Source: Aphrocallistes beatrix
Lineage: Eukaryota; Porifera; Hexactinellida; Sceptrulophora; Aphrocallistidae
Direction of reading: 5' to 3'
NCBI GenBank assembly: GCA_963281255.1
Contig: OY725488.1
Location: 8,281,524-8,345,523, forward strand
Length of the DNA: 64,000 nt
The notes beneath the pieces were generated by a model. It made no database searches. It worked only from the letters and a program-made list of their open reading frames with translations, and was not told the DNA's origin. Shown piece after piece: positions 4,738 through 64,000 of the stretch. Both the position numbers and the translations under genes were made by a program. How positions within the stretch are numbered: position 1 is the first letter of the stretch; each line of letters opens with the position of its first letter.

Positions 4738-4828
4738 TGGTGAGTCTAGAAAATGTTTGAAATTTCAGCGAAAATCCCTATGCTCTGCTAGAATATAACA
4801 AGACAAAATTTTACACTTTAAAATATAC

Positions 4829-9697: not shown

Positions 9698-9787
9698 ATT
9701 TTCTCGGTTTTCCTATTCAATATCTTACGATAAATGTCGAAATTCTTTGAAATTCTATTGTACAAATTAGTATTTTATTGCTCATCT

Positions 9788-20544: not shown

Positions 20545-20702
20545 AGAACAAGCAAGACCAAGTCTTGCTCAGATGAGTCTACCTCAAGTGTCAGATCTCA
20601 GACCGGATTGGAAGAATCAAAAATGGACAGTTATTCAGCTCCCATACACTCACATGTTCTCGGGGATCCATTTGGCAGATCGACTTCTCTAGTTGGGATT
20701 AG
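20545..20702 (+). pseudogene. RNF213: Copy 1 exon 14
   Basis: 158 nt, acceptor TGTATGTAG, donor GTATGT. Encodes RTSKTKSCSDESTSS..HSHVLGDPFGRSTSLVGI. H-V-L-G-D-P corresponds to human G-H-V-L-G-N-P downstream of the RZ finger. A single Cys and no Cx3H or CxxC. Confidence 0.8.
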
Positions 20703-32330: not shown

Positions 32331-32461
32331 ATTTAATCATTTGAAAGGTTAAGACAAACCGAACAAAAATTTGTTTACTAATCAATTATTTTACCATTTT
32401 TTTACATCTGTCTTATACTTATTCATTACTAGCCAATCTAATGAACTTGTTTTATTAAAAT

Positions 32462-35400: not shown

Positions 35401-38400
35401 AGATATTATCTCTGTACAAATTACTCAAGATTATACGGTCACAACCTATTCTCTAAATGAACTGAAGGAGATACAGGGTGAAAATATTCTGATTTCTCCT
35501 GAAATGCTTCAAGATTCAGTCGGTGCGAGGTTTCAAAATCTGTTAAAACTCATCCTTAGTCTTTCTGAAATCGTTCTGAAGTTCCATAAATCTGGAAATG
35601 TGCTGTTTCAAAACAAAAAGCTAACTTACTCTTGTGATTCAACTGATATTTTGTCAGAAGATATTACTTTCTTGGAAGGAAAGTACAAGAATTGGATCAA
35701 TAATTTTGAGCAATCACGTCAGAAGTGTTATTATCTAAACTTTTTTACTTCTTCACAGATTCTAACAATTCAGATAGAATTAGAGAGATTAAGGAGGTTT
35801 CCTTCTAAAGTTATAGAAAAGCAAGCTTTTTATTTGTTAACTATCTTATCAGAAGAATTAAGCGAGGAAGAAGTTCGTGGTGCATTCAACAGAGCCAATA
35901 GAGGATCTTCATCCACTGTCTTGAATTGGTTGAGTAGTTCAAGTATATCCGACGAAATGTACTCACCTACAAGATTGTCTATGCAGTCTAGTTTAGAAAC
36001 TTCATACATGCATGTGCCAAGACCAGAGCCTAATACGAGTAATGATAATCTATTTCATGACTTATCCTTGATGAGCTCTTCACAGACTGGATATGAAGAG
36101 TTAGGTGAGACCCTTATAACCCATGCATTTCAATCACAACTGATCAAAATGTATCAAAATCAACCTGAGTATATTTGTTTGAGTAAACTAGAGAAACTTT
36201 TTAGAATTTTAAGTTCAAAAAATGATCAAAATAAACGAAATTTTTCTTTAACATCAAGTGAACCCAATCTTATCTTTGTTCCCAATCATCTCATGATGGA
36301 TTCCATCTTATCTCTCTATTACCCTTCAAATCAACTCCCATACCCCCACGAAGTTCTCATCTGTTCTGAAAAGACTACTCTGGAGGAAATAGAAATATTC
36401 TGGAGAAGATCTCTCAACAATGCTTCTAATGCTTTTATTTTCTGTTTAGCTTCAATTGAGAAGTTGAACTATGATGTTGCAGTGAAGAGTGTATCTTCTC
36501 TTAAAGGTTTTCTCAACTCTGCAAGTTCTGACAAATCAGAATTTCGATTAGTGTTGATATGCTCTGAAGAACACAAACATTCTAGTTACATGGCATCAGC
36601 TCTTGTCAGATATGAACGAATATTTTCGATAATTCAGAGCTTAGAAAATCTCAAATATTTTGTTTTTGATAACACTTCTTCTAGCACCAATTGTTCATTA
36701 AAGAAAACTGAACATTTCCCAATGAAATCAGCTTCCATTGTCGATCCAGATGGATGTTATGTAAGAATTGTGTCATCTGAATCACATGGAAATGGAAAAT
36801 CTCTTGCGATAACGCGATGGGTTGAAGCTTTAGAAAAATTATCAAAATCTGTAGATCCCCATTTAACTCCTTGTACAATCGTATCTCTCTATGAGAGTAA
36901 AGGTTGTGAAGATAAATCTACTGACAAACTCCTCGCTTCACCAGTATCAGCAGGTGAATATGGACGAATTTATCATTTTGATATTATTTGTTCATCAGAT
37001 AAACAGCTTCTCTCATTTCTATTCAAGTTGCTCATTATGAGGACAATTTGTGACCGTTCAGGTCGTATTTATCGCTGTAGCAAGAATAACTACTATGTCA
37101 TTGAAGCTAACATGTCTACACTCACTCCAGAACTGATGCATTTCTTTGAATTATTTCCTGTTTGGAATTGTTTGGGACCAAATGAAGTGTTAAGATCTGA
37201 AAAAGGAAGAAAATGCTCGGAAATCGAGGAAATAAGTTTGTGCGACCCTATCGAATTTCAATCTGAACCATTCCAGAGGGTTTTTGCATATCTATCCAAA
37301 TTAGAGTCTCGAGCGAACATAGACGGGTACATATACACAAATTGCCCAAATCAAAAATACGAAAATCGATTAGATATTCTTCTGAAATATTATGATCAAG
37401 ATAATCCATCTTGGAGTGAAGTAAAACATTTTATTTCATTTTTCAACAAACAGCTGATTGCTTGTGAAGAAAATATTTATTGTCAATCTTTCAAAATCAA
37501 TAAGCATTGGAGTGGATTTAAGAAATTTTTAGTGGACTGTATGGTTCTGATGTCAAAAGATTTCACAACTCCCTCACTCAGGAATTCATTACAGTCTCCG
37601 CCTCCAGATGCAGTTGCTGGATATGGCATAGACGAGAATAGGAAGTGGGGACAGAAAAACTATCCTAACATTTTCATAAATGAAGACCTTCAATCAATGA
37701 CTTTCTTTGGAATATCAATCTCTCAAGATCTAAGTAAGTTGGATGGTTTTGATTCAAACAAAATAATTGCCAAGAAGGTTATTCCTAAACCGCTTTACAA
37801 TCTACTCAAGAAGAATGAAGTTAATTTAGAAGAAGATTTTCACAATTGGGATCGCCATAAGATGCTTTCAATATTAGTGAATGTATTGGGTGTTCCATCT
37901 AATTCCTCAGATGCTCCTCCTGATCCAGATCCTAATTATGTACTGACTGTTGACAATGTTAAGAAAATACTGGCCATTCATATGCGCTTTCGTTCTAACA
38001 TTCCTGTTATCTTAATGGGAGACACGGGATGTGGGAAAACACGTTTAATTCAATTCATGTGTAAACTTCAAGCGAGGAATCCTGATCTACACAACTTAGT
38101 TATTCTCAAGGTACATGGTGAAATCACAGAAAATGATATCAAATACTCTTACAGAAATGCATTAGAATTAGCTGAACGGAATTCATTAGAAAATATCGAT
38201 ACAATTCTTTTCTTTGATGAAGCAAACACAAGCTACTCGATTGGATTGATAAAAGAGATTCTTTGTGATAGAAGAGTTGATGGAGTGTCCATTCCAAATG
38301 GTTTACGACTACAGTTCGTAGTGGCTTGCAATCCTTATCAGAGACACTCAGACAAGATGTTAACCAAGCTGACTTCTGCTGGTCTCGGAATGCTAGCTTC

Positions 38401-41239
38401 CAATGATCAGGTGAGAGAACACTTCATGGATATCCCTCTGAGGGAGCTGGTATACAGGGTGCTTCCTCTCCCCAACAGCCTTCTACCTCTGGTGTGGGAT
38501 TTTGGAAACTTAACTCCTGAAAGTGAAAAATCCTATATCGATAGTATTGTTGGTGCAAATCTGAATCATGATACTTCTAAACAACTAGTATCATATAGTA
38601 AAGTTATTTCAGACACGTTATATCACTCCCAAATGTATATGAGAGAGAGGAGAGATGAATGTTCCTTCGTTAGTTTGCGAGATGTTGAGAGAACTGTTCG
38701 TGTTATGTTGTGGTTCTACCAATGGCTGCCAAATCTTCAGATCTCTAATATGACACTTGACCTAATAACATACAGTCTCATCTTAGCTTTAGCTGTGTGC
38801 TATCGAGCTAAATTGAGAGAGAGGAAGGAATTCGATGAATACGTCATATCTAATGTTGCACATTTTCGAAATCGGATAACTGAGATTTCCCTAATAACTA
38901 GAGAGATAGAAAAGCTTCAAGATGTTGTGGTCAGCATGATGAGTGTTGGAGAATACATTGCTGTAAATAAAGCACTGAAGGAGAACTTATTCATGATGTT
39001 CGTGTGCATTCAGTTGAAAATTCCTTTGTTCATCATTGGTAAGCCTGGAACTTCCAAGTCATTAGCCAAGTATATCATCAGTCATTCGATGAATGGTGAT
39101 CTCAACATTCACGGGAAGAAGGTTGCTGGTATTCAGTTCACACAAGTTAGCATGGAATCTTACCAATGCAGTCAGCTGACTACTTCAGAAGAGATCAGGT
39201 CTCTATTCAGGAAGTGTGAGACTATTCAAGCTCAGAATGATCCTTCTTGTGTGGCATGTGTCGTGTTAGATGAAGTGGGACTAGCAGAAGATTCCCCAAA
39301 CTTACCTCTGAAGATCCTGCACTCCCTCCTTGAAGATGGAATGGATTCAGAGGGTCAGGGACCAGGTGTCGCCTTTATCGGTCTTTCAAACTGGGCGCTC
39401 GATCCCGCCAAGATGAATCGGGGCATCATGCTGCATCTGGAAGATCCAACTGCTGAAGAATTAGTTAACACTGCACACTCCATTATCAATCCTTGTAGAG
39501 AGAGACATGACAATTATTCACAGACACTCAGTCCTTACATTAAGAGTTTGGCTGAAGGATATTTGAAGTTAGTAGAAACGCAATTATTGGAGAATAGACA
39601 TTCAAAAGATTATTTTGGACTCCGTGATTTCTATCATCTCATAAAAATGTTATACTTCCTCTCTAAGAAGTTTAATGTACTTAACAAACGGATAATAATT
39701 TATGCGATTAGGAAAAATTTTGATGGGATTACTGACATTGATGTAGTTGAGATATTCAATCAATACCTGAATATTCTAGATTATGAAGATGATATTGTTC
39801 TTCTTTCTGATCCTCTATCCTTAATAACTTCTTCTTTAGAGTCCACATCTCATGAAGATCCATACTTGAGATCTAGGTACCTTCTCCTCTTGACAGATGG
39901 TTACGTAGCACTGGACATCTTGTTTAACTCGCATATTCTGAATGAAGACACTAAAGTGATGTTTGGGAGCAGCTTTCCTCTTGACCAGGAGTACTTCAGC
40001 ATATGTCACAATCTGAACAGGATCAAGATATTCATGGAGACAGGGAAGACAGTGGTTCTGACAAATCTATCCAATGTCTATGAAAGCCTTTACGAGATGC
40101 TTAACCAGTTTTACGTGGAATTGTTCGGGAGGAGTTGGGTGGATATCGGGATTGGATCTCGTCGCATTAAGTGTGCAGTGCACCCTGACTTTCGACTGAT
40201 AGTGATCGCTGACAAAAGCACAGTTTTCGAGAAGTTCCCTCCTCCTTTAATCAACAGACTGGAAAAGCATATCTTGACCATTTCTACCATAATTGAGGAC
40301 GATGTAGTGATGACTAATATCGTTTCCAAATTAACGGAATGGCTCCAGCATTTCAATACAGTTCACATTAATGTACAGAATGACACACTTCCTTTTATGG
40401 TCTACTCTACAATAAATAAGTTAGGGTTGAAAGGAAGAGAGTTGGAATGGGAGGAACATATTTTGAAAGTTGCAAAATTTGAACTCCTGAAGATAGTCAC
40501 TCCCAGTTCTATTCTTCGATTATCGAAGTCAGATTTAACTCAAGAAGCAACTGAAGTTTTTGAGATTTACTGTAAGAATAAACCTTATAGTCTCGTCGAA
40601 TATTTGCAAGAAATACCAAATATCAAAAAATATTTCAACCACCAATATCGTAGTAGTTCTGAAAAAAAATCGAGAGGTGTTGAAATGAATCCTGTCTTTC
40701 ATTCAGACTTGAACTCCAGTACAAACGAAGATATTCCATTTCTATCGTTTGTCACGACTCACTCAATTCTTCTTACAGAAGCTGACATCTCTGAAATAGC
40801 CAACGATCTAACCGCACATTTTGAAATGAAGCCAAATATTTCCCTTATGAATCTCTCTCAGTTCCGAACAGAGAAAGAATTTATCCTTTCTATCAACCAG
40901 GATATCTCAATTTATTTGAAAGAGAATGAGAATACAATCATCATTATTCAGTGTGAAGAAAATAGTAGAAATTCAGACCTTATTTCGTGTGCTAAATATA
41001 GATTGGTTGAAATTATCAAAGAAAATCTGAATTTAAATTCGAACTTTTATTTTATCTTGATCATCAAACTGGTACTGACAGAACCTGGTTCTGGTTGTTC
41101 TAGTTTCTGTGGTGAGCCTTGGGACAGTGTGTATATTGATGAACTCAGAAAATCTTATCATTATCTACTTCCTCCATTTGATCAAATCACTCAACTCTCT
41201 GTTGCTCAAATATTCGACTATCACTATCCAGATATACCG
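32462..41239 (+). CDS. RNF213: RNF213-like copy 2 exon 1: zinc ribbons, CBM20-like region, arm, AAA+ core
   Basis: A single 2,926-codon exon. Start chosen at the first ATG, which opens directly into a zinc ribbon (C5, C10, C25, C28); a second ribbon follows (C45, C50, C67, C70). Residues about 140-255 resemble the CBM20-like region (I-P-Y-K-Y). Then a long helical arm to about 1270. P-loops: AAA2-like G-N-G-K-S at 1443-1447; AAA3 GDTGCGKT at 1853-1860 with Walker B FFDE at 1917-1920; AAA4 GKPGTSKS at 2193-2200 with VVLDE at 2267-2271. S-N-W-A-L-D-P-A-K-M-N-R-G (about 2307 on) and F-R-L-I-V-I..P-L-I-N-R-L-E-K-H (about 2577-2605) are as in human. Donor GTTTGT after PDIP. Short minus-strand frames inside are shadows. 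Confidence 0.92.
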
Positions 41240-44200
41240 GTTTGTTTTATTTTAAATTTAAATGTTTCCTTATTTATTGATAACGATTTCATTTAATAAA
41301 TAGATCCTGACATCGATCTCTTCATATGGAGACAAGTATTACTTTAAGAAGCAAAGATTGCTCCTTTGCGTGCAGAAAGCTGTCTCTAGATTATTTGATC
41401 CTTCTGAGCGTACTATTGACAGAATTGTGCTGAGGATCTCTAAACTTTCTCAATTTCTATCCCATCAAGGTATCACCTATGTTCAATGAATATCAAATGA
41501 ATATCAACTTTTTTTCTAAATAAATATGACATCTTAGCATAATCATATTGTGTTGAACTTTTTTCCTTATTAAATAATTAACATTTGGTTACTTTCCTCA
41601 ATAACAATTTCCTCAAGAACAACAACACTACAATTTGTACTTTTTTGTTTCGACCTCATTAATTAATTCGAATAAGTAACATTCTATGTTAGGATTCTTA
41701 AGGAATTCAAATATTTAACGGATCTTTGGCCGAAATTAGAGAACAAAATTATTTTCGATATCCCATCTCTGTTCATCCCCATGTATTGAGAAACTGACGG
41801 TAGGGAAACAATTCTAGTATCACAATAATTTATTCCAAAAGTTCTCATTATTTGCAATCAATCCATTAATGCCCTAGAAAATCCTCTTAGATTTGTCACT
41901 TTCAATGCTGTGCATTTTGTCTGCGGGTACCTTCTCGTTATGGAATTTCGCAAGGAGGGTAATATAGTGAAAAGTAAGAACCTCTGCCCTAGAGTATCAT
42001 CACAAACTCTAATAATTCAATTTGAAACTTCTTAATCGTCTGATCTGTTAGGCAAATTTGTTGTTGCGGCGGCCTTACCAGTTTAGCACCTAGTCGCTGA
42101 AAATATTCAATTTTATTCCTTAAACCATTGCCTACTCTAATAATGCCTCACAGTAGACTGAAAATTATGGACTAGGGATGAAGTAGTAGCCGAATGGATA
42201 AATACACGATTAGCCTAAAATCATTAACCATGCAGAATAGGCATTAATAATGCATTATCAGCATATATAAACATGGTATCAAAGTACATATATCCGTTTG
42301 AAAAATTTCGATTAGTCATCACATCATTACGGAACAGGTCATTTTAAGCACGATTTTGGCAATTTTCTAAGCTGTTTTAAGCCTACTTCTAAATGTTATT
42401 AAGGTCGAATTTTTTGTGTAGAACTAAGATTAATACGAGAAGATTTGAAAAATTAAGAATTTTTCAATGGAATGTTGTTACATTCCTGCGTTGCTATGGT
42501 AAAGCATTTTGGTCAGTTTGGGCCATTTCGTGCAAACTGTAGTAGCTAGATCTTTAAATTTGATCGTGTTTGATAGGCAATGGACTACTTCCTATTAGGT
42601 GATGATACAACTTGAACTTCTAAATTCAACAAGTTTTGAGTTATGGGTTGATTTTAAGAATGTGACCAAAACACTAAATTGTTGCATAACTCTATAGTCT
42701 GTGAATTTAGAAGTTTAAATTGTATTATTACCTGATAGGAAGTAGCCGATTGCCTATCAAATACAATCAAATTTGAAGACCTAGTTCTTACAGTTTGCAG
42801 GATATGGCTCAAACTGATCAAAATGCTTTTAGCAAGGTAGGAATGTAGCAACATTCCATTGGAAAATTCTAAATTTTTCAAATCTTCTCGTATTAGCCGT
42901 AGAATGCCCAGAGGGGACACAGTGTCCCCGATATCGCGGATGTCTCCCAGCCATTTTCTATGGCGCTGAAGCCATATAAATGCTGGGCATTCTACAGTTA
43001 ATCTTAGCTCTACACAAAAATTCGACTTTAATAACATTTAGAAGTAGGCTTAAAACAGCTTAGAAAATTGCCAAAATCGTGCTTAAAATGACCTGTTGCG
43101 CAATGATATGATGACTAATCGAAATTTTGACAACGGATATATGTACTTTGATGCCATTTTTATATATGCTGGTAATACATTCTTAATGCCTATCCTACAT
43201 GGTTAACGATTCTGGGCTAATCGTGTATTAGTCCATTCGGCTATTACCGCATCCTTGGTTATTTTACTGTGAGGCATTATTAGAGTAGGCTATGCTTAAA
43301 CCTTACACTTTACACCTTGTCAATGTTGTATGGGGACTTATACCTTTATTAACGAAATGGTCTATTTCTCTAGAACTAGCTGACCTAACGTGCGATAAGA
43401 TTTCCAATCTCTTGAGTCAGATCACCTCTACAAAGTACAGTGCAGAATGGGCCTACATCAAAGCTCTAGAACCTGACTGCTCCACCTGCTGTGTTAATTT
43501 CATGAAGACTTTGTCTTTATATATTGATGATCTCATCGTACCACTGCTGGGAGGTATCTTGGCTATCCTTGACACTCGCAACAATTTAGATTTACTATTT
43601 CAGAAAGAAAATAAAGAAGAAAATAAAGAAAATATTAGAGAACTCTGGGAGATGTTTTATCGAGATGAGAATATAATCAATTTGAGTTCTTTGATTACAG
43701 ATCGATCTTTGAGTTCTCGCTACTCAATTCTAAATCACTCTAGAAAGATAAAACTAGTGAAGAACAGTTTTCCTTTTTTTCTGAATATCTATCGACAAGT
43801 CAACCAACTTTTTCATCAAATGTACACTAATCTTGGTAAGTTGACTGATTTCTGAAATATTTATGATTAAATATAATCGTATTTACTCTAATCCCGGTGT
43901 AGCAGCCCAGATTAACCCCCGCCTAGGATACACCCGGGTATAATCTTGGGCAGTCTGGATTATGCCTCTTGGTTTCTGGGCTAACCTAGATTATACTCCG
44001 AGGTATAATCTAAGCTACCCCAACTATACCCGGGTATATTCTGGGCTGTTACACCGGCGAATTTCAAGGTTCCATACCCCATGATTTAGAACCAAATATG
44101 ATGAGTCCAGACACTCACTTAACATAAAACGGCGCCTACATAATTAGAGTGCTCAATGCTGAAAGTATTTTATTTTGATCTCTCACTAGACTTGAGTGAA

Positions 44201-47200: not shown

Positions 47201-50200
47201 TTTGCCTTTGTTCGCAGTTGAAAGATAAGGTTAAAAAGTCCCTCACAGACGGGATAGACGTGCTCTTATCGTGAGAATACACATGTAAAATGTTATGTTA
47301 TTGAGTCACTGTACCCCATTTTATATACTTTCTCACTCATCATGACGTCACCATGATGACGTTAACATAATATTGTAGAGACATCCATACTGAAGATTTC
47401 ATCAAACATGTTCACTTTTATCTCATTTTATATTCGCGAGATATATATCTTATTAGGAAAGGATGACTCAGATATTAATTAACACTCATTTTAGAACTAT
47501 GCACCTATGCTATTACAAATATAGGATTATAAATTCTATATAATAGTATAGGTAGCACACTAAAAATTCCTCAACGATATAGATTATTGAAAATTATCAA
47601 TAGTATGCACCCGTAATGGGCTTCTGAATTATTTAATATCTCCAGGCGCCCTAAGACAGCTCTGAAGACGCGAAGTACTCGCTAACCACTACATTTCAAT
47701 TTAAGTAAGTATATGTGTCATGGGTTGGGTTATCACAAATATTATATCAGTAAACCAAAATATTTGTGCATACAGTCAACTCCACTTAATCGGGATAACC
47801 GCTTAATTGAGACAAGTCTCCAGGAACAGAATGCTTCCCATACATAGAAAATATACTAAATTTTATCGATTAATTGGGAACTCCGCTTAATCGGGACAAA
47901 TTTGCAACAGGAACAAATATTGCATATAACATAACGTAAAACTAAAAAGGCATGAATTTAAACATAATAATGTAAAGGCAACTTCTCAGGAAAGTATGCC
48001 TCACGAACGGCGAGATTCCTGTATTCTAAATGCTGTAGAGCATGTATTTGTTTCCTCTTTGTGGAGGCATTATTCTAGGCCGACTATTATTCAAATATTG
48101 ACGGTATTTCAATATTTATCGCTGTACGTATTAACGTATTTCCTTTTGCACCCTTTTAATTACTTACTGAAGCTACACAATGGTCTATCGATCGACATTT
48201 TAGGTTTTGAACATTTAAATTGTTAATGCCTTATTTAATCGTATTCCTCTATTTTTATTAGATTTTGTAATTATTTACTTTTGTTTAGGTCAAAATGGGA
48301 AGGTACTAAATGCCTGGTAATATTTTTTACTCACTTTTTTGACGAGAAATTGCTTGAAGACGAAATCAATTTGAAACTGAAATCAACAGTAATCTTACAA
48401 GAAGCGCTTAACAGAATTTATGAAGTAATTACTTATAGCTATATTTTCACTCAACGAATGTTGAACTTAGATAGAACTTTGATAAAACTTTGATTTTTAG
48501 GATATATCTTTTTATATATTTATATATATATATATATATTTCAGATAGTAACTCAGGAGGATGTCAATTTCAAATATTTATACGTAGTCAAGTCTATCTT
48601 AGACACACTGAAAATATTCACGTAAGTAATTTTTCGATGTATACATATTTGCGTTATAACAAAAGCATTACTACAACTTGATTATATTACAAACCCGCTT
48701 TGCGCACTTGCGTCGCGTTGCCAACGAATACTTAGAGTCGCCCTTGGGTGCCTGGGAATATCGACAAATTCAGACTTGGTTTTGACCAGGTTGTGACCAA
48801 GTCAAACAGTAAAATAAAATCCACTGAAGAAAGTATACTCCATCATAGCCTACTTAATATAATTAGTTATATTGAGTAGGTTATTACTCCATCTAGATAT
48901 TATCCTAACACGCGCGGCTAACCAACAATTCGTGTTCTTAGAGTCACAATGCAGGAATGAAAACAAATTCAGAGCCCCAAACGGGTGATAAATACTTTTC
49001 ACTAACCCATTTCAAATTCAAATTTTACTTTATGAGTATATATTGTACGTAAACAAAAGAATTTCCATATAATATCGAAAATACGATATTTGGAATTGTG
49101 TTACTATTGGTGGACTAATACATATTTTCTCTACTCATTTTGTATTCTTAGATCGGTTAAAACAGAAGATGTCATCCACGTGTGTACTCCTAGTAATCAG
49201 AGTCAAAAAATATCTTCTATCCTCTTCGAAGCTTGCAGGTGCGTATTTGCTAGATTTCTAGAGAACTCGTTATTTCATTACTTCCAATCTATTAATTCGT
49301 AATGTTACAAAAATTTGTAGTTGCCAGCTTAAGATGTTGGATTTCTTCCAAGATCTTTCTTCCCGGTTCTTCCTGCAGATGCTTTTGAATATCACTTTTT
49401 CAAATGGACTCACCTCAATTCGAGAAGATCTCAGAAATTTTCTGATTGAATTTTTGATTAAAAATCAAATTCCAAAGAAACAGGGGACAGATACACTAGC
49501 CCCTCTTTATCTATTCAAAGACAAAGAAATGAATCCTTCTCCAGCTCTTCGTTGTATTCTTTTAGAAGTTCTATTAAGGGACAGGTAGGAATCCTTATCA
49601 ATTCAGATATTTTATTTTCTTCTTCAGGGAAGATAGAGCTGTAGTTTTAGAGATCTACTTTTTAAATCTAATTAATCTTCTGTGGCGGACGAATCGATCA
49701 AGCTAATCAGGCCATGGTCTGACCACTTTCGTTGCTGTATAATTCTATCTTCATACATCTATATTTTATCCGAATTCATGTGAATGAACTAAATTTTTTA
49801 TGATTTTAGAAATGAATCAATCCAGAATCAAATAAGAGAAAACATAAACGCGAACTGCTTGATGTTGAGACAAAAAGAGCGCACTTATGGAGACAATCTG
49901 GCATGGATATATCTTCAAAGTTTAGAGGTAATCTTATATATTATAACACTATTGTTTCTGTTTTGAGATGTAGGTGTCGAATAGTGAGTCTAAAAATGTT
50001 TAAATTTCTTCGAAAATCCCTATGCCTCTGCTAAAATATAACAAGACAAAATTTCACACCTTAAATTATATATATTTGCATATTTTATGTAATTTTTAAA
50101 CAGATGATAAGGTTTGAGGTGTAGAGCCAAATATAATAATTTATAATGTGATATGATAGCTGACTAATGCGGACATATTCTCCGCAAGCCTCGCAAGTCG

Positions 50201-56200: not shown

Positions 56201-59200
56201 TTCATAAATAGAGTACCCCGATATATTTTAATATTTCTATCTCATGTTCCAAGTCACTTTTTGAAGCTGCACTATCGGTATGTCTGTAGGGTTTTATTTG
56301 GGGGGGGGGGCTCCCCCAAATTGACGAAGTCATTGGAATATTTGTGGTCACCCCTATTTATATGACTGTAATTTCATTTGGAAGAGGGGGCCCTTTCCTA
56401 AATTTGGGGGAGACTCCCCAAATTTATGAATTAACAGGAATATTTGGGAAGTCACCCCCATTTTTAAGGGAGATTCTCCCTATTTACACAGCCTCTGGGT
56501 TTCATTTGGGTTTCATTTGGGGGCAACTCTCCAAAATATACTAGCTTGAGGAAATATTTTAAGGAGATATCTTCAAATTGTGTTTTTTGATGAGTATTAA
56601 TTTTCTGTAATAAAACTAACCTTGTACTATCTTGCATTTAAAATTCCTTATTTTTCAGCGATTAAAGTTGTATTTATCCATATTTGGCAAAAGTATAGCT
56701 GTAGATCCATATGTGAACATATAAGATATAAAACTTTCCTGGGGGTGCTTGGCCTCCCAGAGCCCCCCTTAAGGACGCTCGCTATGCTCGCTTTTTGTCC
56801 GCCTAAAAAATATATTTTTAAAATCTGCCCCCCCCCCCCCCTTCCGACGTCTGTCCCCTTCCTGAGAAATGTCTTGTTACACCCTACATAATAATCATGT
56901 TTTGAACCAAAGAGGAATCGCGCTAATTACTTGGATCTGCCTGAACAAAATACGATTCCAATATTATCCAAACTCTTCTGCACCAAGTATGAATATTACT
57001 TTACTTAGCGTGAAAATTACGCATATACTTTATATAAATCTTATAGATGCATCAAAAGAGGTTCCAACAAAACATCATATTCGCTATCTTTAGTGAGTTT
57101 GTACCTAATCACCTGGGATCTTCAATCAAAGTACTATCTTCAGATAAAGTAAGGATATAATTAGGAATCAAGATAAGTCTATCCTAGAAATTTATTATCT
57201 TTCTCATTGAATTATTCTTGGATTAACGAAGTTTCGAAGTTGTAGTTCAAAAGAGACAGAACGTGTTTGACATGGAAAAAATTGCTTTCAAGTACGATTG
57301 CTTTGAAGTATTCATAACATGTCAGTCTATTGTAGTGCCATACAATGATTTTATTCTATTGTGAGAGTGCAGCCATATATACTACTGTATGGAAAAGGTG
57401 TGAAAAATCTTTTTCCATTTTTTTGCAGAGGTGTGAAAATTTCACTTAGATCTTCGAACTTAATCATAAACTCATCATTTGACACATACGTGCCAATTTT
57501 CATATCTCTACGACTTGCCAATTCTTCAATCAATTCGGACAGATAAATTAAAAAATCCTAGCGTTTTAATATATAAGATTCATGAATTTTGATTTTGCAA
57601 AGATTTTGCAGTTCTGAATCATAAATTGATACCAAATTTAGTAGAAATAGGACTGTTTAGTTTTTGCAGGATCATGCATAGTGACAGACATGGAACACCT
57701 CCATGCCATAAGAGCATTTTCCAATAACAAATTTACTTATTTTCTAGGAAAAGCAATTGAAAGAATGTATTTGCAACATTCTACCTAAAGAACCCATTAA
57801 CTTACAAACATTAGCTACTGACATCATGGGAAATAAACTCTTTAACTTGCCTCAGTTAAGGATATCACCAGACACACATTTAAATACAGTTTTCATAGCA
57901 GGTGTATTGTGTCACATCGGTGTGTTTCTGCAGCTGACACGTGATAATACATTCTTTAAGCCTCTCACACTAATTCACTTCAACCCAACTGAGCTTCAGA
58001 ATCATTTTTTTCCTGCAATTTCTGAGGAAGAGTCTACACCAACCAAGACTAAAACCTTAACAATCAAACATCTTACAGATCATCCAACATCAATTAGAAA
58101 TGTAAGACCCAGCAATGAGGTCTGGGGGCAAGCTCTTAGACCTTTTAAAAAATCTTAAACACTTAGATATCGATTTATAGCTTTTTTACCATGAAGAAAA
58201 TATTGTAAATTTATATATTTTACTGATATATATTCATGATATAAAACTTACTATCTTTCACCAAAAAGATAAACAAGTAGATGATAAAAACTTGAAAAGT
58301 AAGAGAGCCGCTCCCACTTCACTTTAGCTGTTTACGCCTATGAATATACGCATGCATTTTATTTTTGGAGTATCTCTGGCCCACTATTATATAAATTAAA
58401 AATTTCAATTTGAACTGCTGATCGGCTGAATAGAAAATAATAATCTGATCTTGTATGTAGAGAACAAGCAAGACCAAGTCTTGCTCAGATGAGTCTACCT
58501 CAAGTGTCAGATCTCAAACCGGATTGGAGGAATCAAAAATGGACAGTTATTCAGCTCCCATACACTCACATGTTCTCGGGGATCCATTTGGTAGATCGAC
58601 TTCGCTAGTTGGGATTAGGTATGTATGTCTGATATATTGCATGGCAGTGTTGCCAGATATCTCCAGCATCAGAAGGCCAAATTGCTCACTAAAATAGGCC
58701 AAATTATTCCAAAATCCTCCAAATTCCCCAAGTGTTAAATTATAGTCTTATCAGAATATACAGTGTTGTATCTAGGACTCGGGGTGCTCAGGGGCCAGTG
58801 GCGTAACGTAACCAGAATCATTTGCTCTAACCTTATTTATGATTAAGTATTGAATAATTGTAATGAATTTGGGTGTTTACATCTAAATTCCCCCTCCGGA
58901 TACCCCACCGCTAAACTATCTAATGATAGTTTAGTTTCGATGATAATCTACACAAATTTTGAGAAATTTCTATCTGAATATACTAAAGTGTTCATTTTCT
59001 AGTCATATAACTGTAATGCTTTAGATATTAAGACTAACAATTTGCATAAATCTTATTGCATTGATTTACAAGCAATGTTAAGCAACTCTCTATGAAACAA
59101 CCCGGATAAAAGTATAAAATAAGACGAAAGAATGGAGTTCAAGTTTCTGAAGGCGAAATGGCAACCCTGTTACATGATGAAAGTGTGTCTTGTATGTTCT

Positions 59201-62200
59201 TTTAGGAATTTGGCGCCTATATCAGTAGCTCTCATCCGCACGTTAATGCACAGCATATTCATTTGGACTCTGCAGTCGAAGCACAAGGAGCATCCTTCTG
59301 AAATCATAAAGCTGGTTGAACCTATTTCACCTAGAAACACCTACATAGAATATTTCTATCTCCACCTAGTCCAGGATATCATAGATATAACCACCATCAG
59401 TAACAACACATTTGAAGAAGCTATTCTGCACGTACACTTGCTAATAGATCTGATAATTCATCAGGAATTAGAGCCTAAACACGACGATCCACGTACGTAC
59501 TATATAATTATCGAATAAAAAAAATAGAAATTTATTTACTATTCTTTGACCTATGCTCCATTATATTTATACAAAAACCCCCAACTTTGTATGGCTCCTC
59601 AGCCTAAATGAATTAATCAGAAGTGAGCAGCAAATTATTCCATATATTTAAATAATATTTATGAACTCACAAAATTTCTTTCCCCATTATTGAATGAAAT
59701 ACGTACTGTCATTATTTATTTAATTTCATATAGTTCGGATTCCCACAGATTTATTGACCTCTACTGATCGAGATGAGTGGGAGTATTTTTTTGAAAAAAC
59801 TTTGATTAACCAACTTTTGGAATCTAGTGAAATGCTACTTAGGGAAAAAATGCTGATTGTTATTTCAAAGTCTGGCAATTGTGACATCTCTTTATTGAGG
59901 TAAGTCTAAAATATCCGACATTCTGGAGAAGTGAGAAATTTTGAAAACATTTCTACCGCGATTCTTCCAAACACGTATGACTCCAAAGCTGTTGAAGATT
60001 GAGGATTTGGTCTCATTCGAGGTAGAATTATCTCCTCTTTCATTCTATTAACTCAGAATCACGACACGAGCATAAAAGTATATATCTGGGGCTCCCAAAT
60101 TCCCACTTGAAAATACGCTGAAAAATAATATTTTATTTTATTCATCGAATTAATTTGAATGAATATTTTATTTTAAAACTGTTAATTTTTTGCTGAAATC
60201 GATAGAAATTTTGAAATTCGAGCATTTATGCCAATATTTTGAATAATTTAATGCCGAATATATGTCAGTTTGTTTTGAAGTGTATTTAATCAAAGATGGA
60301 GACTCTTTTTGCGATTAACACTTGTAATCTTTTTTGCCAATGTGCTGTTTATCTTTACAGCTAAAAAAGGAATAGGGCAGAAAATGAGATGTACCACAGT
60401 AGCAAATAATAACGCTATTCCTTATTGTAATTTAGTGATAATATTAATAATAACGCAAACCATTTATGATAATTGCATTGATTATTTTTAATCGTTTTCC
60501 TTGACTCTTAAAATTCTTTAGGAGTTATGTAGTTCTATTGTTGATATTTTAAATACGTTTTACTTTAAAATGATCACAAAGTGGTAATATTGTTGCCCTT
60601 AAATAATATTAACATGATTTATAGAACTTTCTACGAAGAAGAGAAGGAAACGAAACGAAATTCAATGCTGTGGAGACATAGAAGTATCATAGGCTATGAA
60701 CATCTCTCACAACTTTTTAATTGCCAGAGTTTACTTACTATAGCCAAATATCCATTGTTAGAAAAGTTTCTCAAAGAAAAAAATATCCTATCTGTCACAA
60801 AGTACCTGCCTGATCTCGTGAATCTGAGGTTTCAACTCATTCAGGAGAGCATGGAGTATTGCAGCGAGAGGAGAATATCAAAGTTATCTTTTTCTGAATT
60901 TATTGAATTTATCAAGAAAAGTATGTGTTATGTTTCTGAACCATTATAGTTGTACGTTTTTAAGTTTTAAAGGTTGAGTATCTGGTTTCGAACTTGATAA
61001 TTTGTCTCCTTAATAGCTAAGAATCTTCCTAATGCTAGCTAGAATCTCGTTCCTGTGATTTATTGTTTTAGTTTTCGTTCTGGAAATACCCTCCATAATT
61101 TTGTTGTTTTTTTGTTGTTTAAAAACAACAACATATTCAAAACGATTTTCGTTGGCAAATCTTAGCTTTATGAATGCTAGTTATTAGCGCTATGATTGAA
61201 TATTCAAGTATTATTCAATTTTTTTTATAGAGGAAACTACTCACTTAGCAGATGAATATAAACAAATCTTCAATACTTTTCAAATGATCTGGAGTGTACT
61301 CACCAACCAGCACAAATCCAGCGTTGAATGCAGTAATATGCAGATCGGTGATTTGGTTGGAGTTGGAAATAATGGAGGCCTGCTGACGAAACTGATCTCT
61401 AGCCTGGTTGATATTCACAACGGTTTTATATCTCAATACAATAAGTCGTTTTGTACACCTTCAAGGTAATTATCATTTTGTGAAATAGAACAATAATATT
61501 ATTATTGCATTAGCATAAACAGGCGCCAAAAAAAGGCAACTCATGCGGACGTGAAGTGTTGTCAGATTTATAGAATTTAATTTAGTCTAAATTAACCAGA
61601 TTTTCAGATACTTATATATACACATTTTGCATATTTTGAAAAAGATTTTTAGCTGAAAGTGAGTTATCAAAGGCTAACATTTTTTTAAAATTATGTAGAA
61701 TCCGATTTTCACACTTTTAAAGAAATAATGTGAATAGTATATGAATTAGTACATAACCTACGCGTATGTATGTATACCTACACATTTTTCCTTGTTTAAG
61801 CTTAATGGGGGTTCTTAACAGCTATTATAAGGTATTTCAATGTGTTTAATCCGATCTTTCTACTTTGAACGTAAGAATGTGAATACATTATGATTTTATA
61901 AAATGAGTAGTTCCCATGAATTACGATATTCATACTTGTATTTCACGTGCCTGCACAATCGGTCTGTCGACCGATATTTAAAAAAAATGGGCTATATGTT
62001 GACAACATTTTAAAAAATCTGATTAGGTCTAAAAGAAGTGTACCGTTAAGCGTTGTTTCTCCTTCACACATGATCAACTATGAAGATCATCTTGACAGTC
62101 TCATATTCTCTAACGCCACTTACTCCTTCCAAATGGGAGAAGGGACACACATCCACTATAACTTCAGTGGTATTCAGAATGACTTCGGTACAAGATTTAT

Positions 62201-64000
62201 GTCCTCTAAACCCACAATAACACTAGAAACATTAGACACAGAGTATCCAGAACAGATTTCTATGGTTGATTATTTCAAAAGACTCAAACTGAAAATTCCT
62301 CAAGTCGGTTCAGTTAAATTTACATGTTTATATAGTATCATATAAAGTTATGTTTCATTTTAACTTGTTTAGGAAGAATTACCAGATTGGGATACGATTA
62401 AAGAAGAAGTGATGAATCCTGTTGAAATATCTGAAGTTATTTCTCTGATTGAGATGGTTCTTAATTTTGCATATTCTGCAGATGGATGTTCCCCAAACAC
62501 GAGAATCATATTATATTTACATGAAGTACTCAGATACCCGGAGAATAAAAATTTAATCAGCAAAAGAGTGAGTATTTGGAAATTTTGAATTCTCTAATAT
62601 TTTTAACTTAAATAGATCTTATCTTTACACATATATGCTATAGGCGAACGAAATCTGCTGTCTTAAACACTTATCATCACTGTGGCACCATTTGTCTATC
62701 CACAGAGCAAAACGATTAGCACTTCTTTGTCAGGTAATTCACGCAGGGGGTGGTAATATGATAGAGTGAGGGTGGTTGACAAGACTTCTTTATATAATAA
62801 AATGCAAGCGCGCTTTGCCACTTGCGTAACGCGGGTAGTGAGCACTTTGTGTTCGCACAGTTGCCCTACAGGCACCTGGGAATGTCATCAAATTCAGAAT
62901 CTCCTAAGGGTGCTAAATATTAATACTTTCACCATTTCAAATTTGTTTACTTTATGAATTTATTGTAGACAAAATAATCAATATAAAATCGAAAATAAGA
63001 TATTTTAAATCTACACCCCAAAAACTGATGTCAACCGTTGAAAGCTAGTCTCTAATCTATTTTTGGATTTGTTTGCTTTATGTAACTATTGTAAACAAAA
63101 GTAAACAATTAATTTATCATATGGATTTGAAAATATGATATTTGATATCACACCCCTAAAAACCGTATAAGTACAGGATTGGTCAAAAATCGTCAAACAG
63201 CCAAGATATACCTTAAGAATGTATTGGCTGCCTATATAAACATGGTATCGAGGTATGCATATAACAAATAACCAATTAAATATGTTGATTGTCCTAAATA
63301 TATCTGAAAGCGTTCGAATTTAGAGTTACAAAATGTATTGTGAACTAATAGAAAGTAGCCTATTGATAGGCAACAGGCTACTTTTATTAGTTCACAATAA
63401 ATCTAATTGAAATGTCTAACGACTAGCCCCAAATGGCAAAAATGCGTTTCCATAGCAATGCACAACATTCCATTGAATGTTTTCAAAATTTTCGGATCAA
63501 CCAGTCCAAATCTTGACTTTGTCTGAAGATTTTATATTAACAACGCTTAAAAGTGTGCTTCAGAAAATCGGTAAAAATACTGTGGCGCAACGACATGATG
63601 ATTTATCACAATTTTGAAAACGGACATGTGTACTTCGATACCCATTTTATAAATGCTGGTAATATTTTCTTGAGGTATATCCTGCAGGTTTGACGATTTT
63701 GGGTTAATCCTGTATTTACTCTATGGACTTCGGAATTATTCATGATCCATATTTTTGAATCTGTGGATTGGCCTTATACAACGAAGGTCACGCCTACCGT
63801 AATTTCTAGATTACTTTTTTAGTCTCCATTTCCTTCTATACCCCGTGACTATCTGGAGGATGTGAAGTCATCAGATATCCCGAGGCTACTGAAGGGTATT
63901 ACTAAGAAAAATGTAGATGGAATTCTAGCCATGATACACGATTTCATCCTTTTCAACTTGAATCTACTTGTATCAGATAATGCAGCTATACCAAACAGCA
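32462..64000 (+). CDS. RNF213: RNF213-like AAA+ protein, copy 2 (intact within window, 3' end beyond edge)
   Basis: Exons 32462-41239, 41304-41469, 43374-43835, 44549-44721, 44810-45276, 48289-48424, 48545-48621, 49152-49238, 49321-49584, 49810-49927, 51320-51760, 55716-55823, 57748-58101, 58461-58618, 59206-59492, 59734-59899, 60625-60920, 61231-61465, 62027-62303, 62373-62567, 62644-62733, 63823-64000+. All joins use GT..AG and keep phase, giving at least 4,504 codons; one terminal exon of about 55 codons is expected outside. Vertebrate RNF213 is a roughly 5,200-residue cytosolic dynein-like AAA+ E3 ligase acting on lipid droplets and intracellular pathogens. The AAA+ core and C-terminal domain are recognisable here, but neither the RING nor the RZ zinc finger is found. 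Function as a ligase is therefore uncertain; an ATPase or scaffold role is inferred. Confidence 0.9.
41304..41469 (+). CDS. RNF213: Copy 2 exon 2
   Basis: 166 nt after a 64-bp intron. Encodes ILTSISSYGDKYYFKKQRLL..CVQKAVSRLFD. Matches human R-S-C-V-Q-S-A-V-G-M-L-R-D. Confidence 0.8.
41470..42118. other. Intron 2, left part, no gene
   Basis: AT-rich intron sequence up to the target duplication of foldback element C. Nothing recognised. Confidence 0.4.
42127..43294. mobile_element. Foldback MITE C with 8-bp target duplication
   Basis: 1,168 bp flanked by CTTAAACC (42119-42126 and 43295-43302). Ends ATTGCCTACTCTAATAATGC / inverse of CATAGCCTACTCTAATAATG. The two arms pair across the whole element. 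Same architecture as 16151-17217 but clearly diverged. It ends 79 bp before exon 3, leaving the polypyrimidine tract and acceptor intact. Contains a nested 102-bp MITE. Confidence 0.85.
42896..42997. mobile_element. Harbinger-like MITE nested in foldback C
   Basis: Inserted in the right arm of element C, recognised because the left arm lacks it. Ends GCCGTAGAATGCCCAG and inverse CTGGGCATTCTACAG. Flanked by TTA (42893-42895, 42998-43000), the PIF/Harbinger-type 3-bp duplication. Confidence 0.75.
43374..43835 (+). CDS. RNF213: Copy 2 exon 3
   Basis: Acceptor TATTTCTCTAG chosen because it completes the codon split by exon 2; an upstream ATG at 43292 lies in the MITE and is not the start. Encodes ELADLTCDKISNLLSQ..DDLIVPLLGGILAILD..ELWEMFYRDENIINL. 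Human counterpart V-T-P-L-L-A-S-M-I-S-F-I-D..D-L-W-M-F-I-F. Confidence 0.8.
43894..44057. mobile_element. 164-bp MITE with internal ATACCCGGGTATAATC palindromes
   Basis: Ends CCGGTGTAGCAGCCCAGA and inverse TCTGGGCTGTTACACCGG. Internal repeats of (A/T)ACCCGGGTATA and AGATTATACT-like units. Lies in intron 3. Confidence 0.65.
44195..44450. repeat. CCATGGGTCAC repeats in intron 3
   Basis: Multiple CATGGGTCAC / GACCCATGGTCCACTCTG phrases in both orientations (44200-44262, 44395-44452). Probably a small transposon; ends not defined. Confidence 0.4.
44549..44721 (+). CDS. RNF213: Copy 2 exon 4
   Basis: 173 nt, acceptor CTCTATAG, donor GTAATT. Encodes INETFERFEDSFNQSSIGRA..AYLRDFCTYHM. Matches human F-Q-Q-T-P-L-G-R-F..C-Y-L-K-D-F-I-L. 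Confidence 0.8.
44810..45276 (+). CDS. RNF213: Copy 2 exon 5
   Basis: 467 nt, acceptor TTCTCTAG, donor GTAAAT. Encodes TIYIMLFVAASKHRR..IPSIHIAYHLIRRRVVF. Human counterpart L-Q-M-A-L-W-S-C..V-H-L-A-Y-Q-R-F-R-S-R. Confidence 0.8.
45369..46156 (+). repeat. GC-ended interspersed repeat, long full-length copy
   Basis: Starts TCTTATATATTAAAATGCTA, then GTCCGAATTGATTGAGGAAT, TTCACACC motifs, two or three tandem internal units of about 150 bp (CTAGAGGCTGGCTTCCAACG .. TTTGTTTACATTAGAT), and ends GGCGACTCTGCGGACA..GAAGCGCGCTTGTA. No ORF. Sits in intron 5. TC start and hairpin-rich 3' end could mean Helitron-like. Confidence 0.65.
46157..46898. mobile_element. Mariner-like MITE, 742 bp
   Basis: TA-flanked, ends CAGGGTGACAAATAAGTTCT and inverse. 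The inverted arms include AGATTGTAATTCGAATACTT. It abuts the GC end of the preceding repeat exactly. No transposase. Related to 52635-53407, 50715-50938 and 1909-2017. Confidence 0.75.
46960..47770. repeat. Diverged interspersed repeat sequence in intron 5
   Basis: 46965 on: GTATATTAAAACGCTAGGAT then GATTGAAGAACTAGCAAGTC; and a minus-strand piece of the GGCC-core family at 47480-47575 (TAGCACACTAAAAATTCCTC). Also a GGCGCCCTAAGACAGCTC GC-type end near 47645. Decayed and mixed. Confidence 0.45.
47773..47912. mobile_element. pogo/Tigger-like element fragment
   Basis: TA followed by CAGTCAACTCCACTTAATCG, then internal CCGCTTAATTGAGACAAG and CTCCGCTTAATCGGGACAAA. Same terminus family as 628-835. 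The right terminus is not found, so it is truncated. Confidence 0.5.
48289..48424 (+). CDS. RNF213: Copy 2 exon 6
   Basis: 136 nt, acceptor TTGTTTAG, donor GTAATT. Encodes SKWEGTKCLVIFFTHFFDEK..EALNRIYE. Human counterpart R-A-Q-W-S-R-I-F-S..L-L-D-K-C-L. Confidence 0.75.
48545..48621 (+). CDS. RNF213: Copy 2 exon 7 (last exon before the expected RING)
   Basis: 77 nt, acceptor TATTTCAG, donor GTAAGT. Encodes IVTQEDVNFKYLYVVKSILD..KIF, fitting the helix directly before the human RING (F-E-A-V-M-R-T-L-C-E-C-K-E-T). It ends in phase 2 and joins exon 8. Confidence 0.7.
48690..48870 (-). repeat. Decayed GC-ended repeat in intron 7
   Basis: AACCCGCTTTGCGCACTTGC..GAGTCGCCCTTGGGTGCCTG, shared by position with copy 1 (1400-1625). 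The intron (48622-49151) holds no open Cys-rich segment. Confidence 0.55.
49152..49238 (+). CDS. RNF213: Copy 2 exon 8
   Basis: 87 nt, acceptor ATTCTTAG, donor GTGCGT. Encodes SVKTEDVIHVCTPSNQ..SSILFEAC. It takes the place of the RING and post-RING linker of human RNF213; only two Cys and no CxxC. Confidence 0.8.
49321..49584 (+). CDS. RNF213: Copy 2 exon 9
   Basis: 264 nt. Acceptor TTTGTAG at 49320 chosen since it keeps phase (S-C-Q-L-K-M-L-D-F-F). Nearly identical to 2763-3026. Confidence 0.85.
49810..49927 (+). CDS. RNF213: Copy 2 exon 10
   Basis: 118 nt, encodes NESIQNQIRENINANCLMLR..WIYLQSLE. The following intron carries the empty site for the copy 1 hAT insertion near 49980. Confidence 0.8.
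49928..50714. other. Intron 10 of copy 2, left part
   Basis: Ancestral intron sequence homologous to 4127-4198, 4745-4828 and 5140-5360 in copy 1. It lacks the hAT element and the OTU/4.6-kb transposon complex. A decayed GC-type repeat end lies near 50180-50225. Confidence 0.5.
50715..50938. mobile_element. Mariner-like MITE, 224-bp deletion derivative
   Basis: TA-flanked, ends CAGGGTGGCTCATAAGTTCT and inverse. Internally shortened relative of 52635-53407. Confidence 0.7.
51320..51760 (+). CDS. RNF213: Copy 2 exon 11
   Basis: 441 nt, phase 0, acceptor TTACCACAG, donor GTTAGT. Encodes DSYHHNLSKNKENIS..AIRFAIHWIVKWKT..FFPKNYETIQK. Differs from copy 1 mostly within residues 75-110 of the exon. 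Confidence 0.85.
52196..53754 (+). repeat. GC-ended interspersed repeat with a nested MITE
   Basis: Starts TCTTATATATTAAAATGCCA and ends GGAAGCGCGCTTGTA. It is interrupted at 52635-53407 by a mariner-like MITE between GGGTGATA and TATGGGGTTTTC. Internal tandem units contain CTAGAGACTAGCTTCCAACG. Confidence 0.6.
52635..53407. mobile_element. Mariner-like MITE, 773 bp
   Basis: TA-flanked, ends CAGGGTGGCTTTTAAGTTCT and inverse. Long inverted arms (over 150 bp). Closest relative 46157-46898. Inserted inside the repeat 52196-53754. Confidence 0.75.
53756..54805 (+). repeat. GC-ended repeat, 3'-truncated, with nested MITE
   Basis: Begins ATTAAAATGCTAGGATTTTT straight after the previous copy's end and carries three tandem internal units with CAACGGTTGACATGGGG. 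It stops at GAGTAATTCCAGGCG before the GC-rich terminus. A MITE (54511-54732) lies inside. Confidence 0.6.
54511..54732. mobile_element. Mariner-like MITE (GTGTAACAAAAGTGTT ends)
   Basis: Left end CATGGTGTAACAAAAGTGTT, right end the inverse AACACTTTTGTTACACCCTG, TA-flanked. 222 bp. Confidence 0.7.
54806..55715. other. Intron 11, right part, no gene
   Basis: AT-rich, no family-related open frame. Some similarity to copy 1 sequence around 17450-17620 (for example TGAAAGAATTTGAA.TGTCTGG), consistent with homologous introns. Confidence 0.4.
55716..55823 (+). CDS. RNF213: Copy 2 exon 12
   Basis: 108 nt, acceptor CATATTTAG, donor GTTCCT. Encodes GWYLDLFYGIDAAQMTIMDL..STQKK. Close to human D-R-Y-L-V-Y-G-D-E-Y. 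Confidence 0.75.
55868..55965 (-). repeat. Decayed GC-ended repeat terminus
   Basis: TACAAACACGCTTCCCGCAC..GGGGTGCCCTGTGGGCG, a mutated version of the GC-rich terminus. The short frames over it are not genes. Confidence 0.5.
56285..56540. repeat. G-run/C-run repeat family, third block
   Basis: GGGGGGGGGGCTCCCCCAAA followed by GGGGGAGACTCCCCAAATTT and TTTAAGGGAGATTCTCCC units, partly the reverse of 14040-14285. A further C-run lies at 56825-56842. Confidence 0.5.
56541..57350. other. Intron 12 of copy 2, no gene
   Basis: Includes stretches homologous to copy 1 intron 12 (57060-57120 with GTTCCAACAAAACATCATAT against 19450-19510). Short frames here have no recognisable domain. Confidence 0.4.
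57365..57587 (-). repeat. 5' part of the TCTTATATATTAAAA repeat family
   Basis: On the minus strand it begins AATCTTATATATTAAAACGC with GCTAGGATTTTTTAATTT, then TCCGAATTGATTGAAGAATT and TTCACACCT. It lacks the GC-rich end. Both strands show short shadow frames. Confidence 0.6.
57748..58101 (+). CDS. RNF213: Copy 2 exon 13
   Basis: 354 nt, phase 0, acceptor TTTTCTAG, donor GTAAGA. Encodes EKQLKECICNILPKEP..NHFFPAISEEESTPTKT..SIRN. The conserved segment ends where the human RZ finger would start. Confidence 0.85.
58461..58618 (+). CDS. RNF213: Copy 2 exon 14
   Basis: 158 nt, acceptor TGTATGTAG, donor GTATGT. Encodes RTSKTKSCSDES..HSHVLGDPFGRSTSLVGI. It resumes human homology at H-V-L-G-N-P, directly after where the RZ finger would be. 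Confidence 0.85.
59206..59492 (+). CDS. RNF213: Copy 2 exon 15
   Basis: 287 nt, acceptor TCTTTTAG, donor GTACGT (the first of two overlapping GTAC sites, the one that keeps phase). Encodes NLAPISVALIRTLMHSIF..HVHLLIDLII. Confidence 0.85.
59734..59899 (+). CDS. RNF213: Copy 2 exon 16 (intact)
   Basis: 166 nt, acceptor TCATATAG, donor GTAAGT. Encodes RIPTDLLTSTDRDEWEYFFE..LIVISKSGNCD. Reference for the 1-bp deletion in copy 1. Human counterpart N-N-W-E-K-E-I-A-A-V-I-S. Confidence 0.85.
59900..60624. other. Intron 16 of copy 2, no gene
   Basis: AT-rich. Lacks the hairpin and the full-length GC-ended repeat present in copy 1 intron 16. Confidence 0.4.
60625..60920 (+). CDS. RNF213: Copy 2 exon 17
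   Basis: 296 nt, acceptor TTTATAG, donor GTATGT. Encodes TFYEEEKETKRNSMLWRHRS..KYLPDLVNLRFQL..EFIEFIKK. Confidence 0.85.
61231..61465 (+). CDS. RNF213: Copy 2 exon 18
   Basis: 235 nt, acceptor TTTTATAG, donor GTAATT. Encodes ETTHLADEYKQIFNTFQMIW..LVDIHNGFISQYN..CTPS. Confidence 0.85.
61495..62026. other. Intron 18, no gene
   Basis: Has a short GC-repeat remnant (61504-61570, GCATTAGCATAAACAGGCGC) matching 26842-26905 in copy 1, so this insertion predates the duplication. The 326-bp direct repeats of copy 1 are absent here. Confidence 0.5.
62027..62303 (+). CDS. RNF213: Copy 2 exon 19
   Basis: 277 nt, acceptor TGATTAG, donor GTCGGT. Encodes SKRSVPLSVVSPSHMINYED..TRFMSSKPTITLE..KLKIPQ. The frame reads on into the intron, but only this donor joins exon 20 in phase. 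Confidence 0.8.
62373..62567 (+). CDS. RNF213: Copy 2 exon 20
   Basis: 195 nt, acceptor TGTTTAG, donor GTGAGT. Encodes EELPDWDTIKEEVMNPVEIS..YLHEVLRYPENKN. Confidence 0.85.
62644..62733 (+). CDS. RNF213: Copy 2 exon 21 (intact)
   Basis: 90 nt, phase 0. Encodes ANEICCLKHLSSLWHHLSIH..RLALLCQ. The Ser codon TCA corresponds to the stop TAA in copy 1. Confidence 0.85.
62805..63170 (-). repeat. GC-ended interspersed repeat
   Basis: GCAAGCGCGCTTTGCCACTT..CACCTGGGAATG, followed by GAAAGCTAGTCTCTAATCTA and ACACCCCTAAAAACCG. Decayed minus-strand copy in intron 21. Confidence 0.6.
63174..63712. mobile_element. Foldback element, 539 bp
   Basis: TA-flanked; ends CAGGATTGGTCAAAAATCGT and inverse. Contains an inner palindrome around 63350-63400 (AAAGTAGCCTATTGATAGGC..). 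Internal wording (TATATAAACATGGTATCGAG, GTTTCCATAGCAA) relates it to foldback A-C. Confidence 0.65.
63823..64000 (+). CDS. RNF213: Copy 2 exon 22 (cut by window end)
   Basis: Acceptor TTTTTTAG. Encodes SPFPSIPRDYLEDVKSSDIP..DGILAMIHDFILFNLN. More diverged from copy 1 exon 22 than neighbouring exons are. Donor and terminal exon lie beyond the window. Confidence 0.8.

Follow-up and report, generated by a model that had tools for sequence, protein, structure and literature searches.

In published work, the ATPase and ligase activities of RNF213 were separated by engineered mutations (PMC11549300, PMC12075652). Deletion of the RZ finger or a change of its zinc residues was reported to abolish RNF213 activity; for the deletion, this was seen in cells as well as in vitro. 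The same report describes regulation of the E3 activity by nucleotide binding in the AAA core (PMC12075652). The mouse C4462S mutant kept autoubiquitination in that report, and a protein that has lost only this Cys may therefore not be fully inactive. With RZ mutants, bacteria were described as no longer coated and the Toxoplasma vacuole as still coated, without ubiquitin; ATPase activity was needed for the coats on all three pathogens tested (PMC11549300). Mouse RNF213 without its RING was reported to keep wild-type-like autoubiquitylation (PMC7311170). From this biochemistry, a protein without RZ and RING and with an intact ATPase would be expected to be ligase-dead and may still assemble. 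As for gene number, one RNF213 gene is reported in human and six in salmon (PMC12234341), and expansion of RNF213 is known in symbiotic bivalves (PMC9993606). Among the matches listed in our search of titles and abstract openings of open-licence PMC articles, no RNF213 homologue without the RZ finger was found.

Here, we analysed a stretch of 64,000 nucleotides from Aphrocallistes beatrix (the window), and found that it holds two RNF213-like genes, copy A and copy B. Like vertebrate RNF213 (human, mouse), copy B has the AAA3/AAA4 catalytic residues, the giant core and, flanking the RZ place, sequence of the E3 module, but it has neither the RZ finger nor a canonical RING. It shares with the laboratory mutants of RNF213 (H4509A, C4516S, RZ deletion; PMC11549300, PMC12075652) an AAA machine without working RZ chemistry. 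In contrast to these mutants, the state is inherited here by a branch of paralogues, and copy B also lacks a canonical RING. ZNFX1, compared over the RZ only, belongs to the same RZ family as RNF213 and keeps its finger.

Locus and AAA core

The window lies at C1:8281524-8345523, C1 being its contig, in a genome of 100.5 Mb and 28 contigs. It contains the 3' part of copy A, whose end lies somewhere before copy B, followed by copy B from 32462 onwards. Our readings of copy B concern the part inside the window; further exons may follow beyond it, and the E2-docking C-terminal domain would lie at or beyond this end. The two genes belong to a tandem array of 10 RNF213-like genes in a single orientation, which spans ~380 kb (C1:8084765-8464271). 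The features are listed in Table 1.

Table 1. Features of the two RNF213-like genes, in window positions
Feature	Position	Strand	Reading
Copy A exon A (L012)	19888..20241	+	Linker type as in copy B, replacing RZ
Copy A exon B (L012)	20545..20702	+	End set by analogy with copy B
Copy B giant first coding exon	32462..41239	+	N-terminal Cys-rich motifs, stalk, AAA core with AAA3 and AAA4 Walker A/B
Copy B downstream exon(s)	43289..43852	+	Similar to 6tay chain residues 3023-3148 (27 bits); ends unrefined
Copy B exon at RING position	49152..49238	+	87 bp, SVKTEDVIHVCTPSNQSQKISSILFEAC, splices to SCQLKMLDFF; splice read by eye
Copy B exon right after RING position	49321..49585	+	Similar to RZ-less C6 genes, weakly to C4; 3' end unrefined
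Copy B exon A	57748..58101	+	E3-module sequence to NHFFPAISEEE, then first half of linker where RZ begins
Copy B intron	58102..58460	+	Phase-0 GT..AG; place and phase match the RZ-splitting intron of the RZ-bearing paralogues read
Copy B exon B	58461..58618	+	Second half of linker, then HVLGDP, where RNF213 homology resumes; AG at 58459-58460
Copy B exon C	59206..59492	+	RNF213 homology after RZ (NLAPISVALIRTLMHS...); 3' end approximate
Copy B further exons and introns between	59734..62585	+	Exons align to mouse RNF213 up to ~5009; ends approximate

The giant first coding exon of copy B lies in an open frame (32459-41296) of up to 2945 aa, and its donor at 41240 was read by eye. It matches mouse RNF213 with 968 bits and residues 1263-2903 of the 6tay chain with 928 bits. 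Its AAA3-AAA4 region scores ~420 bits to RNF213, compared with 35.7 bits for a weak AAA match to midasin/Rea1, also a giant ring of AAA units; for the E3-module exons, midasin was absent from the matches listed. The human RNF213 residues K2426, E2488, K2775 and E2845 (names from PMC11549300) correspond to K, E, K and E in copy B, in an alignment to human chain 8s24 numbered with a 40-residue offset worked out from the chain coordinates. Copy B thus carries an RNF213-type dynein-like AAA core. The sequence-only reading of this DNA had described intact AAA3/AAA4 motifs; this holds for copy B (4/4 residues) but not for copy A, whose AAA core contains a TAA and whose Walker B reads FFDDAN for FFDEAN, with Asp at the E2488 position.

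At the N-terminus of copy B (32462-32700), we observed two tandem four-Cys zinc-ribbon-like motifs. A scan of 32741-33478 for the CBM20 domain gave no Pfam match, and a single-sequence fold of the N-terminal part reached a mean pLDDT of only 32.7. The window also contains repeats. A transposon (8833-13417) inside an intron of copy A has terminal inverted repeats of 820 nt with 100% complementarity, and an 835-aa open frame with an in-frame 24-bp minisatellite (32.1 copies, 99%). At the protein level, 94 matches to it occur in the genome, the best other near-full-length ones at 96-97%, and it has no Pfam domain above the cut-off in the two pieces scanned. Mutually related tandem arrays with a unit of ~140 bp lie between recognised exons of copy B (45778-46051 and 54137-54510).

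A linker in the place of the RZ finger

The placement of exons A and B in the sequence-only reading was confirmed by their AG and GT sites and by phase 0: exon A has an AG ahead of it, 118 codons and the donor GTAAGA. When exon A and the later exons were joined, they aligned in one stretch to mouse RNF213 4361-5009 (101 bits, E 4.6e-28), showing that the E3-module sequence around the RZ place is present in copy B. In this alignment, the flanks correspond to mouse NAFLPTMPED before the RZ and HVLGSP after it, and the mouse RZ itself faces the linker. The mouse protein reads WYTCPRGHPCSVGECGRPMQESTCLDCGLPVGGLNH at this place; copy B reads TLTIKHLTDHPTSIRN and, beyond the intron, RTSKTKSCSDESTSSVRSQTG. 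The linker is 63 aa long, with 49% Ser+Thr+Lys and one Cys, a fraction reached by none of 2882 windows of the same length in the giant exon. These results bear out the replacement of the RZ finger by a Ser/Thr/Lys linker with a single Cys. The loss had been described for both gene copies, and it is seen in both, but its extent is larger, with 15 exons without RZ instead of two.

At the residue level, with roles taken for mouse from PMC12075652 and for human from PMC11549300 as given there, the HMMER alignment places a His of copy B on mouse H4455 and its Cys on C4471. Mouse C4451 and the nucleophile C4462 face gaps, and C4474 faces Glu. An RZ with its nucleophile, that is, four zinc ligands plus the catalytic Cys, is not found in copy B. 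Reading without gaps from the intron, the seven RZ fingers of this genome have Cys at 4/4 Cys positions, His at H4509 in 6/7 and His at H4537 in 5/7. Read in the same way, the 10 array copies vary at all six functional RZ positions, and Cys occurs at the C4516 position in one copy only. When a two-residue gap is allowed, 5/10 array copies have Cys and 5/10 have His at a position near C4525, and 7/10 have His at the C4505 position. A residual metal site in the array copies is therefore conceivable, but with the other RZ positions lost, we do not take these Cys and His for a retained zinc site.

Whether the linker descends directly from RZ coding sequence was also considered, and erosion in place could not be separated from deletion followed by exon extension. 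Position, phase, similar exon lengths, and DHP in copy B where the RZ has GHP favour erosion. Against it, other array copies read DPS, DPP, NLP or DPH, exon A is shorter in one of them, and exon A of the RZ-less C6 genes stops right after FPAIxE.

Search for an RZ finger elsewhere

To look for a displaced or hidden finger, we used Pfam PF20173 and a local RZ model built from seven fingers of the same genome (six RNF213 paralogues and one ZNFX1-like gene on C7, the latter name being suggested by its Cys-rich sequence). PF20173, with 20 candidates scored, gave 16 matches in the genome, none of them on C1, and none in 14 control genomes. In leave-one-out runs, the local model scored each finger at 58-84 bits; 7/10 array copies scored -0.4 bits or less, and 3/10 were unreported. 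Across the window in six frames (2811 stretches), the best full-model match reached 7.2 bits and the best half-finger match 8.8 bits (E 0.17). Of the matches listed (6 for the full model, 4 for each half), none fell in the intron that separates exon A from exon B.

These chance-level scores speak against a hidden or alternative RZ exon, in agreement with the earlier statement that the intron holds no missing exon, and the proposed profile search for ZNFX1-type RZ fingers found no finger in the window translations. A finger moved elsewhere in the protein is likewise disfavoured, since PF20173 has no match on C1 and the local model found no finger in the in-window part of copy B. As judged by three tests (PF20173, the local RZ model and the residue alignment), the RZ finger is absent from copy B. 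On this sequence evidence, copy B should not be classed among the RZ-type transthiolating E3 ligases.

The RING position

We read an exon of copy B at the expected place of the RING and a second one right after it; against mouse RNF213 after its RING, the second scores only -0.4 bits. A RING pattern gave no match in any frame on either strand of the window, the pattern being blind to an intron-split RING. Taken together, these data support the earlier proposal that a canonical RING is missing at this place in copy B. Both C16 paralogues carry a canonical RING (CIKC...CLHYRCRNC...CPDC or a close variant). Used as a query, the C16 RING exon matched only the C16 pair among RNF213 loci, with three weak matches elsewhere; therefore, the remaining paralogues, RZ-bearing ones included, either have no RING or have one that is split or diverged.

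Paralogues with and without the finger

To compare the exon with its relatives, exon A of copy B was used as a query and gave at least 19 genome matches including itself. The RZ-bearing exon C6:3218197 gave at least 25 including itself: 10 on C1, 5 on C6 (0.54-1.2 Mb) and 10 others. Of these, 15 have no finger, their alignments ending at residue 95-104 of 121; they comprise the ten of the C1 array and five on C6. The alignments of the other 10 enter the finger and run to residue 120-121. Thus, the RZ-keeping paralogue for which a survey of related genomes had been suggested was found within the same genome (10 exons), and the C16 pair combines RZ with a canonical RING.

The AAA core as a query gave 37 rows, corresponding to 25 loci when three weak C15 matches are left out (C1 10, C6 9, C19 3, C16 2, C4 1), in contrast to the single human gene. 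By position, each core can be assigned its own exon on C1, on C16 and in the 0.54-1.2 Mb region of C6. This does not hold throughout: on C4, a single core was detected for two exons A, and for the core C6:3106262 no exon A was detected.

The RZ-bearing paralogues (C16 pair, C4, C6, C19) share their layout with copy B. Five of them (the C16 pair, C6:3.218 and two on C4) were read on either side of the intron: here exon A ends with the phase-0 donor GTAAGT right before the catalytic-Cys codon and exon B begins with that Cys, and the intron of copy B matches in place and phase. In the three C19 genes, the acceptor lies directly ahead of the catalytic Cys. The RZ-bearing paralogues differ from copy B in keeping the finger Cys residues. 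In all five RZ-less C6 genes, the exon A boundary reads GAG/GTATTA, and there is no Cys before HVLGDP in the two exon B sequences that were readable. In two of the RZ-bearing paralogues, L007/L026 (C4:1471-1472 kb) and L008/L027 (C6:3218 kb), we also observed Tyr in place of the His proposed as general base; L007/L026 additionally has Asp at the zinc-ligand His position.

In a maximum-likelihood tree of the 25 AAA cores (15 labelled without RZ, 8 with, 2 undecided), the 15 RZ-less genes form one side of a branch with 100/100 support. One row of this tree is 46% filled, one frameshifted core sits on a long branch, the program warns of long branches meeting, and the midpoint root serves for drawing only. 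The RZ-bearing exon C6:2947306 probably belongs to one of the two undecided cores. The tree suggests that the RZ was lost apparently once, before the branch multiplied; as the finger is present in RNF213 of both mouse and human, a single loss is the most parsimonious reading.

Selection on the array

We estimated pooled NG86 dN/dS ratios among the C1 copies. In exon A (10 copies), the ratio was 0.30 for the body and 0.66 for the linker part; in exon B (9 copies, as L016 has no full exon B), it was 0.57 for the linker part and 0.30 for the end; and in the AAA core (10 copies), it was 0.38. The bootstrap intervals of the two linker parts are wide and overlap the other segments (0.34-1.49 and 0.32-1.08). 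Apart from the linker, the array sequence is thus under purifying selection, and the linker is looser (~0.6).

Proposed role and alternative explanations

From the RZ finger that is missing and the core that is kept, we consider it fairly probable (roughly 0.6) that these genes form a ligase-dead RNF213 subfamily, maintained because of its AAA+ activity or because it partners RZ-bearing paralogues. An RNF213 branch would have lost the finger, apparently once, and then multiplied, copy B being one of 15 detected members. In the C1 array, a Ser/Thr/Lys linker has taken the finger's place, and in the five C6 genes the place has shrunk away, whereas purifying selection acts on the ATPase core of the array and on the adjoining E3-module sequence. 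We infer a ligase-dead state from what has been published on RNF213: lacking the RZ nucleophile and the zinc site, the proteins would not take ubiquitin from UBE2L3-type E2s and would be dead as transthiolating ligases. They probably act without attaching ubiquitin themselves. It is less certain that ATP binding or hydrolysis would still drive assembly on targets. Such assembly could, speculatively, serve a ubiquitin-independent, coat-forming effector, or joint work with RZ-bearing sisters that supply the ubiquitin chemistry. That all 15 genes are ubiquitin-independent AAA+ effectors building ATP-driven coats, with the chemistry left to RZ-bearing sisters or dispensed with, is a tentative proposal with odds somewhat below even.

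The RZ-less branch could instead be a decaying pseudogene family, in which tandem duplication was followed by active-site loss as part of the decay. Besides the stop in its core, the altered Walker B of copy A is joined by FFDNAN at C1:8358018 (2/10 array cores), one array exon A (C1:8432465) contains a TAG, stops or a frameshift occur in 2/5 RZ-less C6 cores, and three C1 giant frames are shortened to 2362, 1546 and 1256 aa. The TAA reported in the exon A match at C1:8463960 lies beyond the chosen donor. Copy A may be a decaying gene, and part of the branch, where apparently intact and damaged members are mixed, may be decaying as well because several members carry such stops, frameshift and Walker B changes. 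However, 9/10 array cores and 3/5 C6 cores are free of stops and frameshifts in the 333-aa stretch searched, 7/10 C1 giant frames exceed 2900 aa, and dN/dS is 0.30-0.38 outside the linker, which makes decay of the whole family unlikely.

A further alternative, which we regard as very improbable, is that the proteins are still ubiquitin ligases and rely on a different nucleophile, or on an RZ or RING that has diverged strongly. Their E3-module sequence does align over ~650 residues, and copy B has the His and Cys noted above at H4455 and C4471, the latter position being Cys or His in 10/10 array copies when gaps are allowed. But the DHP His occurs in only 3/10 array copies, the other RZ positions are lost, no RING pattern was found in the window, and RZ deletion was reported as fully inactivating in mouse RNF213 (PMC12075652). 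The RZ-less genes could also be mere regulators of RZ-bearing paralogues, as hetero-oligomer partners or decoys with no independent effector role. This overlaps the partnership half of our preferred explanation, and is consistent with the coexistence of 10 RZ-bearing exons in the genome and with a reported change in the oligomeric state of RNF213 (PMC3963067); the purified mouse protein, however, was reported to be mainly monomeric (PMC7311170), and we consider regulation as the sole role rather doubtful, if less so than wholesale decay.

A ligase-dead subfamily with a retained AAA+ or partner role remains our preferred reading, and a new type of RNF213 member, a pseudo-ligase or mechano-ATPase as the sequence-only reading had suggested, appears reasonable. 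A natural branch that has the ATPase machine and the E3-module sequence and has dropped the zinc modules would show that the AAA+ part of RNF213 can be selected for a role of its own, and its RZ-bearing sisters within this genome provide a matched comparison.
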